Made by a program: the position numbers and the translations under genes. The notes beneath the pieces were generated by a model. That model was not told the DNA's origin, ran no database searches, and saw nothing but the letters and a program-made list of their open reading frames with translations. From positions 1-64,000 of the forward strand of contig WALW01000007.1 in NCBI GenBank assembly GCA_015522635.1: DNA of 64,000 bases, in the 5' to 3' direction. This DNA is from Candidatus Tiamatella incendiivivens (GTDB lineage: Archaea > Thermoproteota > Thermoprotei_A > Sulfolobales > Acidilobaceae). This document shows positions 40,438-46,100 of the stretch, piece after piece. Each line of letters starts with the position of its first letter. The stretch's first letter is position 1.

Positions 40438-41169
40438 TCAAACCCAGCTTTTATTCAGACCTATAGATAAGTTTTCAATGAGATTGACATATGGTTTCGA
40501 ATACTCTGTTTTGAGAAACTCGTCTTTACCGAATACGCCAACTAGTTTTCCTTTAAGCATATAGGCTATTTTATCAGCAATAAACAATGCTTCCAAAATA
40601 TTGTGAGTTACATGTATTGCCGTGAAATCAAGCTTTTCCCTCAAACTCTTCAGAAACCTCAGACCTTTCAACTGGAGCTCTGGATCAAGAGCATTGAAAG
40701 GCTCGTCAAGCAAGATTACTTTAGGATCCACAGCTAATGCTCTAGCTAAAGCAACCCGTTGCTTTTCTCCCCCGCTTAACGTATCTGGCTTCCTATCAAG
40801 AATTTCTTCTATTTTTAATAACCTTGCTAGATATAGGGCTTTATTGTATGCCTCGTTTTTAGGCACCCCCCTTACCCGCATTCCATAGATTATATTATTG
40901 ATTACAGTCATATGAGGAAATAACGCGTAATCCTGAGGTACAAGCGAGACTCCCCTCTTCTCTGGTGGAAATTCAGTTACGTCAATACTTCCCACATAAA
41001 CTCTCCCTTTATCAGGTTTTATGAGACCAGCAATAGTATAGATGAGTAGTGTTTTACCCACACCGCTGCCTCCTAGAACAGCTAGATATTCTCCTTCACC
41101 TACTTCTAGTCTGTCAACCCATAGCTCAAAACCCTCTAGTTTAACATTTATTTTATCTAGCATTATCAT
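40438..41169 (-). CDS. wtpC: Tungstate/molybdate ABC transporter ATPase
   Basis: A 243-residue ATPase with Walker A GGSGVGKT, the Q-loop SLVPQDYALFPHMTV, signature LSGGEKQR, Walker B VILLDEPFNALDP and H-loop AIHVTHNI. It lacks the C-terminal Mop-like regulatory domain of bacterial ModC. It overlaps the permease gene by four bases and closes the wtpABC operon. The tungsten assignment rests on the receptor gene. Confidence 0.9.
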   Translation of the reverse strand: MIMLDKINVKLEGFELWVDRLEVGEGEYLAVLGGSGVGKTLLIYTIAGLIKPDKGRVYVGSIDVTEFPPEKRGVSLVPQDYALFPHMTVINNIIYGMRVRGVPKNEAYNKALYLARLLKIEEILDRKPDTLSGGEKQRVALARALAVDPKVILLDEPFNALDPELQLKGLRFLKSLREKLDFTAIHVTHNILEALFIADKIAYMLKGKLVGVFGKDEFLKTEYSKPYVNLIENLSIGLNKSWV

Positions 41170-41951
41170 TTCGAAGCCACCATCTTCAATACAATAAATA
41201 TTAGTAATACAATCGACGCGTAAATTGCAGATAACGTTGCAGCATACTTTAATCCATAAACACTCAAATATTCAAGTATGAGTATGTTAACCGTTTTAGG
41301 ATAGTATGCAACTACAAGTAAAGCACCAACCTCACTTAAACCCCTTGCCCATCCAAGAAGGGCTCCAGCTAGAATATGTTTAAATGATAATGGAAGTGTA
41401 ATAGAAGTAAACGCCCTCCATTCACTTGCTCCTAAAGTTCGTGCTACAGATTCTAATGACGATCCGATTAATTGGAATCCTACCTTAACAGTATCAACGA
41501 GTAAAGGAATAGAAACAAATGCCATAACTATTACAATACCCTTAAAGTTGTCTTCGATGATGAATCCTATGTCACTGAAATAGCTTCCCAATAGCCCTCT
41601 CGAACCGAATGCAGAGAGTATCATTATCCCGGCAACTGCATGAGGCATGACGAGGGGGAGATCTACTAATGCTTCGACAAACTGTTTTCCCGGAAAACTG
41701 TGTCGAGCTAAGATGTAGGCAAGTGGGACTCCCGTTACAATGAGAAGTAAAACACTCAATATGGAAGCTTCAAGTGAAACTTTAATAGCATTGATAACTT
41801 CTTGATTTTCAATCATTTTTCCTGACAAACTAGGATTCGCTTCCATAAAAAGAGATACAAGTGGTGCAACTATGAAGAACAGTAACAATGCGGATAAGCC
41901 TATGATTATGTATTCGAACTTGTTAACTTTTACTGTTTGATTCTTCAACAA
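41166..41951 (-). CDS. wtpB: Tungstate/molybdate ABC transporter permease
   Basis: A 261-residue permease with six helices (YIIIGLSALLLFFIVAPLVS, AILSVLLLIVTGVPLAYIL, ALVDLPLVMPHAVAGIMILS and others). The ATPase-coupling EAA loop is SLESVARTLGASEWRAFTSI followed by GWARGLSEVGALLVV, typical of ModB/WtpB. It overlaps the receptor gene by 29 bases and the ATPase by four, so translation is tightly coupled. Confidence 0.9.
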   Translation of the reverse strand: MLKNQTVKVNKFEYIIIGLSALLLFFIVAPLVSLFMEANPSLSGKMIENQEVINAIKVSLEASILSVLLLIVTGVPLAYILARHSFPGKQFVEALVDLPLVMPHAVAGIMILSAFGSRGLLGSYFSDIGFIIEDNFKGIVIVMAFVSIPLLVDTVKVGFQLIGSSLESVARTLGASEWRAFTSITLPLSFKHILAGALLGWARGLSEVGALLVVAYYPKTVNILILEYLSVYGLKYAATLSAIYASIVLLIFIVLKMVASK

Positions 41952-42993
41952 GTCTCACCAATTCCCTTGGAATGACGCCTGAACCTATTGGTTTCTCCAA
42001 GAAAGGTTGGCCAAGATTATTGAAAACATTCCCCCCGTCTTTTAGTATATACTTAACAAATTTTAGAGCATCATTCTGCTGCTTGGATGTTGTAGGTATA
42101 GTTAAACCGTATACTATAGGTGCCATAGTTATTGCTTTCTCACTATTTGTTCCTACTAATATGTGGACAATAACTTTGGAATAGTTTTGAGCATAGTCCG
42201 GATTGCCTAAGTTTACATCATCTGGAAGTGTTATATAACTCAGGTTGTGTTGAACTGCAACACTCTGATACTCGAACGCATAATCTAGTTCGCCGGACTC
42301 CAGTAGGGAGATAAGTTGTATACTTTTAGGTCTAATTACTAAGTTGCCAGTGGGGTTAAATGATGGTGGTATATATATGCTTAGTGTACCATTGGTAAGA
42401 TTGTATTTTGATCCGGGTATTTTATGGATAACGAGGTTCTCTAGTAGTGACATATTATGAAGATACAGGCTCAGTAAGCCGATAACGCCTACTGATCTGT
42501 AACCGCATGGATCTCTGTTAGGATCGGAGAATCCGTATTTAACATTGGAGTTGAGCATGTCATTTAGAATGCTTGTCAAACTATGGTTTCCTTTGGTATT
42601 TTGACTCATAACGATAACGAGTTTGTTAGAAGCAAATTCTACATACCATTTCGTATAGTTTGGATACATGTACAAGGGTATAAGCCTGTAATCAGCTACA
42701 GCGACTATATCGCATGTTTTATGCAGGTCTGTCACTTTTCTAACTGCATCAACGCTACCGCTGGGTTCTAGGAGTATTTTCACACCGGTTTCCTCTTGGT
42801 AGGTATCTGATATTTTCTGCAGTGGAATTGTCAAGCTACCGGCGTTGCATACGACTAGTTCTACATTTTGCTTTTTATTACTTTCATAGTGCTCAAAAGC
42901 TAGGGATCCGGCTATGATGATAAGAATGATTATCACTAGTGCGGCTTTCGAACTTGTCAATATAGACCACCGTGTCTTCTCGTTTGGGATCAT
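41923..42993 (-). CDS. wtpA: Tungstate/molybdate-binding protein (WtpA type)
   Basis: A 356-residue extracellular receptor. The N-terminal signal anchor is AALVIIILIIIAGSLAFEHY. The oxyanion-binding features of WtpA/ModA are visible: VVCNAGSLTIPLQKISDTYQ, LLEPSGSVDAVRKVTDLHKT, DIVAVADYRLIPLYM, and GFSDPNRDPCGYRSVGVIGL. WtpA proteins bind tungstate or molybdate with six-fold coordination and feed tungsten enzymes common in thermophilic archaea. A perfect 18-bp palindrome lies 13 bases upstream of the ATG. Confidence 0.92.
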   Translation of the reverse strand: MIPNEKTRWSILTSSKAALVIIILIIIAGSLAFEHYESNKKQNVELVVCNAGSLTIPLQKISDTYQEETGVKILLEPSGSVDAVRKVTDLHKTCDIVAVADYRLIPLYMYPNYTKWYVEFASNKLVIVMSQNTKGNHSLTSILNDMLNSNVKYGFSDPNRDPCGYRSVGVIGLLSLYLHNMSLLENLVIHKIPGSKYNLTNGTLSIYIPPSFNPTGNLVIRPKSIQLISLLESGELDYAFEYQSVAVQHNLSYITLPDDVNLGNPDYAQNYSKVIVHILVGTNSEKAITMAPIVYGLTIPTTSKQQNDALKFVKYILKDGGNVFNNLGQPFLEKPIGSGVIPRELVRLVEESNSKS

Positions 42994-43142: not shown

Positions 43143-44039
43143 CTATTTTTGGCAAACCTGTAGATCTGTTATTGTTTCATTAAGTTTCTCTGGGATACTT
43201 CCATCAGCAAGAGGTCCGGGAATATAGGCTATCCTAACATTGAACGAGCCTGCGCTTATACTGTTAATGAGGTCTTGAAGTTGCCTCGAGGTTGAGGTTG
43301 AAGCGATTATACAATGAACTTCCTTACTTGTAAGTGCCTTGTTTATTTTATTGAGTTCATCGAAAGATGCTGGTGTGCCATGTTCAATAACGAACAGATA
43401 CTTAACCTTTAGCCCCAGCCATGAAACCTCGTATTGCACTGTTGGGTCTGATGCTATTACTGTCATATTATACTCTCCCTTGAATTTTAACAATTGTTCT
43501 ATTTCAGCATTGACTTTATGCAGGTTTTGCACATGTATACTTGCGCACTTAGGGTCGACTTGATTTAGGACTGTGACTAGTTTTTCCATGAAGAGAATGT
43601 AGTTATAGGGGTCCATAATCGGCATATGATAGTTTGGCTCACCTGTTACAGGGTTATTCAGTATCTTTATCCCCGGCATTTTCGGTATTTCAATTAGAAT
43701 AGCTCTAGTCTCATTACTCTCAACTAGATTCCGAATTTTAATTTCAAATGGAGCATGTCCTGTTGAAACTATAACTGTAGCTTTCTTCAAAAGACCAGCA
43801 TCCCTTGGCGTTAACTGGTAATCATGAGGATCAACACCCTTAGGTACAATTGTTTCAACAGTCTCATTCGCACATGTAACCAGTTTGATATCATCTACGA
43901 GTGATGGAAATGTAGACACTATTAGAATCTCATTGCTCTGAGTTACTTTTTTACTATTATTTTGCAGTATATAGTATCCTACACTGGTGATTATAAGTGC
44001 TAATATTATTATTGAAGCCATTCTCGACATCGTACTCAT
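43143..44039 (-). CDS. Metal ABC transporter substrate-binding protein (ZnuA-like)
   Basis: A receptor of about 299 residues from the cluster A-I metal family. The signal anchor is MASIIILALIITSVGYYIL. Likely metal ligands are His in VPKGVDPHDYQLTP, His near NYHMPIMDPYN, and an acidic/His pair in FVIEHGTPASF; there is no His-rich loop. The start is ATG 44039, 44030 or 44021; the frame open to 44114 would run into the divergent gene's region. It is divergent from the ATPase-permease-NikR operon and shares its operators, so the system is zinc, manganese, nickel or cobalt uptake. Confidence 0.85.
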   Translation of the reverse strand: MSTMSRMASIIILALIITSVGYYILQNNSKKVTQSNEILIVSTFPSLVDDIKLVTCANETVETIVPKGVDPHDYQLTPRDAGLLKKATVIVSTGHAPFEIKIRNLVESNETRAILIEIPKMPGIKILNNPVTGEPNYHMPIMDPYNYILFMEKLVTVLNQVDPKCASIHVQNLHKVNAEIEQLLKFKGEYNMTVIASDPTVQYEVSWLGLKVKYLFVIEHGTPASFDELNKINKALTSKEVHCIIASTSTSRQLQDLINSISAGSFNVRIAYIPGPLADGSIPEKLNETITDLQVCQK

Positions 44040-44080
44040 TGTGCACACCCAAGGTATATAATTTATAAATTTGTGCACAA
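44039..44080. promoter_or_regulatory. Divergent metal-transport promoter with two TGTGCACA palindromes
   Basis: TTGTGCACAC at 44039-44048 and TTGTGCACAA at 44071-44080 share the core TGTGCACA and lie 32 bases apart, about three helical turns. Between them is GGTATATAATTTATAAATT, which contains TATA boxes for both directions. One site overlaps the start codon of the receptor gene. The NikR-like regulator encoded downstream is the natural candidate to bind them. Confidence 0.7.
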
Positions 44081-44104
44081 TAATAAGAATTGCGGGAAGC
44101 AGGA

Positions 44105-44875
44105 ATGGAGCCAACGATTACGGCGGAAAACGTAACAGTACATCTAAGAAACGAAGAGGTAATCCACGATCTTAACATCGAGTTAGAAGGGCCTGGACTA
44201 ATTGTGATTATAGGCCCTAACGGAGCTGGGAAAACTACATTTTTCAAAACACTGGTCGGCCTCTTAAAACCTGTCAAAGGCGCTATTAAAATAAATAATA
44301 TCGATGTGACTGGGAATTCTAAATTAGCTGGAAAATACATAGGCTATATGCCTCAATTATCACAGGTTAACAGGTCATTCCCAGTCACGGGGAGAGAGTT
44401 CGTAGAAAGTAGTGTCCTGTTCAGGATGAGGCCTCCGAGACTTAAAGTGCCACTCTGGGTTAGTAGGAAAGCCGAAGAGATAGTCAAGGAGCTTGGAGCT
44501 CTAGAATTCATGGATAAACCCCTATCGGAGCTGAGTGGAGGTCAAATTCAAAGGCTTATGATAGCGAGAACAGTAGTACCCGATACTCGTATTCTATTAC
44601 TAGACGAGCCCACATCAGCTATAGACCCCAAAGGTAAGTTTGGCATCATAAAGTTTATCGAAAAACTCTCGAAGAGCAAGCTTGTCCTGCTAACAACGCA
44701 TGACCCAACAATCTTCAAGGAGAGGGCGAGGCTACTCATAGTTTTCTGGAGAGGAATAAAGGCTATCGGTAAGCCAACGGAAGTTCTTAAACCAGAAATC
44801 CTCCGTGAGATTTACGGCGAAATGGTTGTCCCAATCAAGGAATGCATCCACTTGGTGGATACCCATGCTGTTTGA
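44105..44875 (+). CDS. Metal ABC transporter ATPase (ZnuC-like)
   Basis: A 257-residue ATPase of the zinc/manganese import family: Walker A GPNGAGKT, Q-loop IGYMPQLSQVNR, signature LSGGQIQR, Walker B ILLLDEPTSAIDP and H-loop LLTTHDPT. The ATG at 44105 is chosen, since the longer frame from 44090 (TTG) would start within the operator zone. It overlaps the permease gene by 11 bases. Confidence 0.92.
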   Translation: MEPTITAENVTVHLRNEEVIHDLNIELEGPGLIVIIGPNGAGKTTFFKTLVGLLKPVKGAIKINNIDVTGNSKLAGKYIGYMPQLSQVNRSFPVTGREFVESSVLFRMRPPRLKVPLWVSRKAEEIVKELGALEFMDKPLSELSGGQIQRLMIARTVVPDTRILLLDEPTSAIDPKGKFGIIKFIEKLSKSKLVLLTTHDPTIFKERARLLIVFWRGIKAIGKPTEVLKPEILREIYGEMVVPIKECIHLVDTHAV

Positions 44876-45665: not shown

Positions 45666-46100
45666 TTGGAGTCTACTGGGAAGAGAAGGTTTGGTATATC
45701 TATAGATGAACGTATAGCAATGGATCTAGATTTACTAGCGACAAGGCTAGGTACAACCAGGAGTAGCCTAGTGGAAAGAGCCCTAGAGGAATATATACAT
45801 GATAGGCTTCACATAATAACTCCACATGACTGTGAGGGTATTCTACTAGTCAAACATTCAACCAACCTCGCGGGCAGGGTCTCTAACGTAATTGAAGGCT
45901 ATACTGACATTGCACTGATAGGATTACATTTCCATACTAGTGACGGCACATGCATACGAATGCTCCATGTAAAAGGTAACAGTACAAGGATCACTGAGTT
46001 CGAGAGAAGGCTAAGGGAAACAGGAGTTGAGATGACCAGGTATATAGTTATTAGGCCTCCTCAGAAGGATCAAGAACAGAACTTATCTACTGCACCATGA
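45666..46100 (+). CDS. nikR: NikR-family metal-responsive regulator with an altered ligand set
   Basis: A 144-residue regulator. The ribbon-helix-helix DNA-binding domain is RFGISIDERIAMDLDLLATR and SSLVERALEEYIHDRL. The C-terminal ACT-like metal domain has LHFHTSDGTCIRMLHVKG: His88, His90 and Cys96 match E. coli NikR His87, His89 and Cys95. The fourth ligand, His76 in E. coli, aligns with Glu77 here. Encoded last in the metal uptake operon, it probably represses it when metal is plentiful. It starts at TTG 45666. Its 3' end overlaps the convergent thioesterase by 31 bases. Confidence 0.88.
   Translation: MESTGKRRFGISIDERIAMDLDLLATRLGTTRSSLVERALEEYIHDRLHIITPHDCEGILLVKHSTNLAGRVSNVIEGYTDIALIGLHFHTSDGTCIRMLHVKGNSTRITEFERRLRETGVEMTRYIVIRPPQKDQEQNLSTAP

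Follow-up and report, generated by a model that had tools for sequence, protein, structure and literature searches.

Among the ribbon-helix-helix (RHH) repressors, MetJ places one dimer on each 8-bp met box, its sites being contiguous and its ligand SAM. NikR has been described as the sole metal-regulated RHH family, and its canonical nickel site is formed by His87, His89 and Cys95 together with His76 of the neighbouring subunit (PMC7055735). The E. coli NikR site, GTATGA-N16-TCATAC, has its half-sites 22 bp apart from centre to centre, and in the delta-proteobacterial site, GTGTTAC-N13/14-GTAACAC, this distance is ~20-21 bp (PMC7055735, PMC545781).

Here, a pair of palindromes is described that lies between a znuA-like gene and an operon ending in a NikR-like gene, in a 64-kb stretch of archaeal DNA (hereafter the window, meaning the whole stretch analysed). 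We know of no characterised zinc-type metal-uptake regulator in Crenarchaeota. A search of openly readable literature found no paper that pairs the octamer TGTGCACA with archaea and none on archaeal NikR-like control of ZnuABC; an earlier prediction of the motif, in RegPrecise or in subscription work such as that on archaeal DtxR regulons, is possible. The pair is read here as the operator of the NikR-like protein, whose metal-loaded tetramer would repress both znu promoters, and we assign this reading a probability of roughly 0.77.

The Divergent znu Locus and Its Palindromes

In the window, the gene of the ZnuA-like metal-binding receptor (PF01297; 43143..44039, - strand, 298 aa from its ATG) is divergent from a tight + strand operon, which consists of a znuC-like ABC ATPase gene (44105..44875, with an alternative TTG start at 44090), a znuB-like ABC-3 permease gene (PF00950; 44865..45659, overlapping the end of znuC, its start codon picked from the sequence) and the NikR-like regulator gene (45666..46100; RHH and NikR_C domains, 144 aa). 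These domain matches bear out the preliminary description, in which a ZnuA-like receptor faced a ZnuC-ZnuB-NikR operon. At the position of E. coli ZnuA His207, the ZnuA-like receptor lacks what is normally the third His, hence its sequence does not tell which metal it binds. The tungstate transporter WtpABC adjoins the locus (40438-42993, - strand), with WtpA scoring above its TIGR cut-off.

The start codons of znuA and znuC are separated by 65 bp, and inside this interval lie two exact TGTGCACA octamers 32 bp apart, at 44040-44047 (operator 1) and 44072-44079 (operator 2), as had been noticed beforehand; both are perfect 8-bp palindromes that are kept in relatives. Operator 1 is immediately adjacent to the ATG of znuA (complement 44037-44039) and hence overlaps the region where a leaderless transcript would be expected to start, and operator 2 lies upstream of znuC. 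The 24-bp spacer between them (44048..44071, TATATAATTTATAAAT) is A/T-rich and TATA-like in both directions, and from its sequence and the spacer base composition in relatives it presumably supplies the TATA/BRE elements of both divergent promoters.

The 9-mer TTGTGCACA occurs at 44039-44047 (+), 44071-44079 (+) and 44072-44080 (-) and has no other copies in the window; 0.32 copies are expected in 64 kb, and three were reached in 0/100 shuffles. The octamer alone is unremarkable, as 0.57 copies are expected in 64 kb and two or more occurred in 9/100 shuffles, so that the significance rests on the pairing: the chance expectation for exact pairs at 32-34 bp in 64 kb is ~4e-5. The palindromes had been given as 10-bp operators, of which only the core stood, since comparison of 117 operators showed that the 8 bp of TGTGCACA are conserved and that the outer T and A/C vary; the 10-bp version was rejected. 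A scan of the window's own genome gave no further pairs and placed none of the hallmark genes of zinc regulons, such as zinc-free ribosomal paralogues, under the operator. The other four copies of TTGTGCACA in this genome are single and lie inside unrelated ORFs, and a wider regulon was therefore rejected.

Conservation of the Octamer Pair

The preliminary description had proposed a search of related genomes as a check, and the outcome was favourable: in many families of the order, in other Thermoproteota and in Archaeoglobaceae metagenome-assembled genomes (MAGs), the two octamers recur with their spacing preserved and in company of the NikR-like gene. The NikR-like protein is present in 43/60 relatives, adjoining ZnuA/B/C in most of them, and the divergent znu regions of 26 genomes contain the same palindromes in almost all cases. 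At least two sites with at most one mismatch were found in 64 of 75 non-identical znuA/znuC divergent regions (0.16 in shuffles), and these 75 regions hold 60 site pairs at 32-35 bp (0.005 in shuffles), with distances of 32 bp (27 pairs), 33 bp (25), 34 bp (7) and 35 bp (1). In most of the remaining regions the pairs are weaker, with a spacing of 32 or 33 bp; one region, L115, was only partly extracted in this count, and its pair is visible at the fuller locus. The sole site-free region among the 75 (L159) comes from a genome, G030, without a NikR-like match.

On a wider scale, the exact pair at 32-34 bp was identified in 33/214 genomes of the order, compared with 0/214 for a reversed-pattern control, and 30 of these 33 pairs are at znu promoters. 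A looser pattern matched 52 genomes of the order (control ~9 genomes), and a scan of 398 genomes from the phylum added five exact pairs outside the order, each of them at a znu promoter. A pair in G134 lies inside a cinA-like gene and one in G209 adjoins a transposase-like gene, and both look like chance occurrences. In the Acidilobus-type genome G020, a second 32-bp pair (L132:1501-1540; G020:C1:748732-748771) is located between MoaD-like and amino-acid-permease-like genes.

The gene cluster is also present in MAGs of the Archaeoglobaceae, a family outside this phylum, with exact octamers 33 bp apart in 4/5 loci; at L110-L112 and L115 the whole znu/NikR-like cluster is present together with the exact paired octamers. 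This suggests lateral transfer between phyla, although mis-binned MAG contigs may be the cause. The pair is not uniformly strong, as the second site is degenerate in many regulator-carrying genomes.

The Octamers Follow the NikR-Like Gene

Of the 33 genomes with an exact pair, 32 match the NikR-like family strongly, the exception being a genome that is 75% complete. In G051, znuC lies ~70 kb from znuA-znuB-nikR and has its own 32-bp pair upstream. The genera g4 and g10 have kept the NikR-like gene alone; g10 is without an ABC-3 match and g4 has only weak ones, which may represent other permeases. In g10 the octamer pair precedes an unrelated polytopic permease, and all nine g4/g10 genomes with a NikR-like gene and without a convincing ABC-3 permease have a 31-33 bp pair before another permease; these pairs were found on inspection, most of them having been missed by the exact-pattern scan, and the g4 orthologues are without an exact pair. 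Conversely, in genomes that gave no NikR-like match, four ZnuABC loci were inspected and had no octamer site, and an exact pair is absent from all 31 genomes of family f11, of which 12 were examined and showed canonical-type NikR only. By association, these cases of relocation, transporter replacement and absence would link the octamers with the NikR-like protein, and not with the genes around them.

The position of the TATA-like element differs between the two kinds of promoter, being between the octamers in divergent promoters and upstream of the pair in the one-directional permease promoters. As the spacing of 31-34 bp is kept in the latter, where the TATA-like element is outside the pair, it would belong to the protein and not to the promoter, which lends support to the earlier idea of a dimer-of-dimers.

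The replacement permease has ~300 aa and the motif HGxTPDEHTWPITFSYA (loci L183-L191, e.g., L183:1501-2418, - strand). It gave no match above cut-off in Pfam, NCBIfam or PDB sequences, with weak similarity to LysE/NicO, and is found only in the acidophile-type genera g4 and g10 and in family f11, being absent from the ZnuABC genomes checked; it is a candidate new metal importer. In the Sulfolobaceae-type family f11 (L194-L208), 15/15 permease promoters carry TTAGGGTNACCCTAA (0-2 mismatches) immediately after the TATA-like element, so the same transporter family appears to sit under a different operator there. This palindrome resembles the DtxR/MntR box, which would fit manganese or iron as well as zinc.

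A NikR Fold With an Altered Ligand Set

Both Pfam domains of the NikR-like protein pass their cut-offs (RHH_3, 28.8 bits against 21.6; NikR_C, 29.2 against 22), and the NCBIfam NikR models score 24-32 bits, far below their cut-offs of 83-175. An AlphaFold monomer model (pLDDT 89) was used for a structure search, in which the best PDB matches (2bj3: E 4e-8, TM 0.78/0.83) were NikR of P. horikoshii, with NikR of E. coli and H. pylori also among the best, and the protein is accordingly modelled to have the NikR fold. All 21 aligned relatives share the strand residues R8, G10 and S12, which occupy the DNA-contacting positions of NikR. In a phylogenetic tree, a 100/100 branch sets 38 NikR-like proteins apart from 16 canonical paralogues of NikR that come from the order as well, and several genomes carry a canonical NikR besides the NikR-like protein.

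The window protein has H49, H54, C56, E77 (at the position of NikR His76), H88, H90 and C96. While H88, H90 and C96 are kept in 37/38 NikR-like proteins, the His76 position is His in 0/38 of them versus 16/16 of the canonical group, with Glu/Asp in 29/38; H54 and C56 are present in 38/38 and H49 in 36/38, and the canonical group has none of these three. No NiFe-hydrogenase match was found in the window's own genome or in ~20 other carriers among the 60 relatives. The loss of His76, the new H54 and C56 and the lack of NiFe-hydrogenase matches make nickel less likely and favour a tetrahedral His/Cys site, with zinc as first choice, and the predicted ligand set fits zinc as corepressor. The protein fails four tested NikR features, and the unqualified name NikR is hence unsuitable: its naming in the preliminary description held for domains and fold, and did not hold in the sense of a nickel sensor, given the separate clade and the missing fourth nickel ligand. 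One NikR-like protein (L064, from G043) has S, K and Y in place of H88, H90 and C96, with a znu promoter that keeps an exact 34-bp pair; judging from these residues, it is perhaps a metal-blind or differently sensing member.

Predicted Mechanism and Relation to Known Systems

In the predicted mechanism, each octamer would be the symmetric site of one RHH dimer, and one tetramer would bridge both octamers on the same DNA face, the 32 bp corresponding to three helical turns. At either promoter, the metal-bound tetramer would cover TATA/BRE as well as the start region and block TBP/TFB or polymerase, so that znuA and znuCB-nikR would be shut off, including autorepression, until metal scarcity lifts the repression. 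To our knowledge, a three-turn spacing exceeds that of any NikR-DNA complex, hence two tetramers, each using one RHH dimer, could be bound instead. For the sensed metal, zinc is somewhat favoured, manganese is a plausible second candidate at clearly lower odds, and cobalt, iron or nickel would otherwise come into question.

Like NikR, the protein combines an RHH domain with an ACT-like NikR_C domain in architecture and modelled fold, keeps the H-x-H...C ligands, and would bind two half-sites on one DNA face to autoregulate a metal-uptake operon. In contrast to NikR, its half-sites are perfect 8-bp palindromes 31-34 bp apart instead of ~20-22 bp, His76 has been lost and H54 and C56 (and H49) gained, and the predicted targets are a ZnuABC-type or a replacement permease. 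E. coli NikR bridges half-sites two turns apart, and the present case would be a three-turn variant; the earlier contrast with GTATGA-N16-TCATAC was correct. The arrangement of one RHH dimer per 8-bp palindrome would be shared with MetJ, from which the NikR-like system differs in that its sites are 32 bp apart and a NikR_C domain is present. Like Zur, the NikR-like protein is a predicted metal-dependent repressor of znuABC and is often encoded beside it, and the operator lies at znuABC promoters and is linked to the regulator gene; unlike Zur, it has a fold and operator unrelated to those of the Fur family, no member of which is involved. The system would work like Zur, while its regulator forms a branch of its own within the NikR superfamily.

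Alternative Explanations

The same regulator could use the same octamers as separate dimers or tetramers that bind independently, in which case the 32 bp would merely set one operator per divergent transcription start. The operators of divergent regions do each lie between the TATA-like element and a start codon, and some promoters combine one strong with one weak site, but we consider independent binding unlikely, because pairs at 31-34 bp are also present at the nine permease loci and at the relocated znuC, all of them one-directional promoters, with a TATA-like element that the pair does not enclose at the permeases, and because several long intergenic regions hold two separate pairs, each of ~32 bp. 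Another DNA-binding protein encoded elsewhere, e.g., of the DtxR/MntR or ArsR/MarR type, might bind TGTGCACA and leave a different role to the NikR-like protein, whose link to the octamers is one of association; in Sulfolobaceae-type genomes, the related permease is preceded by a DtxR-box-like palindrome, which speaks for this alternative. This is very unlikely, as the pair tracks the NikR-like gene through relocation, transporter replacement and the Archaeoglobaceae MAGs and is missing where the gene is missing, and a perfect 8-bp palindrome suits one RHH dimer, as in the met box.

A true nickel-responsive NikR, governing a nickel importer of the ABC-3 type, would account for the Pfam scores above cut-off, the modelled fold and the retention of three of the four nickel ligands (H88, H90, C96). 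It has to be set against the replacement of His76 in 38/38 proteins together with the invariant H54 and C56, the fully supported separate clade, the failure of every NCBIfam NikR model, the carriers without a NiFe-hydrogenase match and the coexistence of canonical NikR in several genomes, and it is therefore quite unlikely. As for a chance or artefactual octamer without a role, its frequency in 64 kb is unexceptional when single sites are counted, whereas the low expectation for pairs and the conservation across the order and beyond refute such a reading, leaving it a negligible probability.

Implications

The broader picture would be that of a NikR paralogue rebuilt as a zinc (or manganese) sensor (H49/H54/C56 with H88/H90/C96) and acting on a three-turn double-palindrome operator. 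As a main switch for metal uptake in hyperthermophilic Thermoproteota, it would have reached Archaeoglobaceae by lateral transfer and persisted after a permease family not yet described took the place of its transporter; we give this picture, taken as a whole, an even chance. All exact pairs found but three mark znu promoters, hence the operator pair is specific enough to annotate such regulons in unstudied genomes. A conserved operator combined with a candidate sensor of altered ligands makes three questions accessible to experiment, namely the evolution of metal selectivity within the NikR framework, the means by which an RHH tetramer would reach across three turns of DNA, and the identity of the permease that took over from ZnuABC in acidophilic archaea. 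The recurrence of the pair with a re-tooled cousin of NikR in heat-loving archaea points to a largely unstudied metal-uptake switch.
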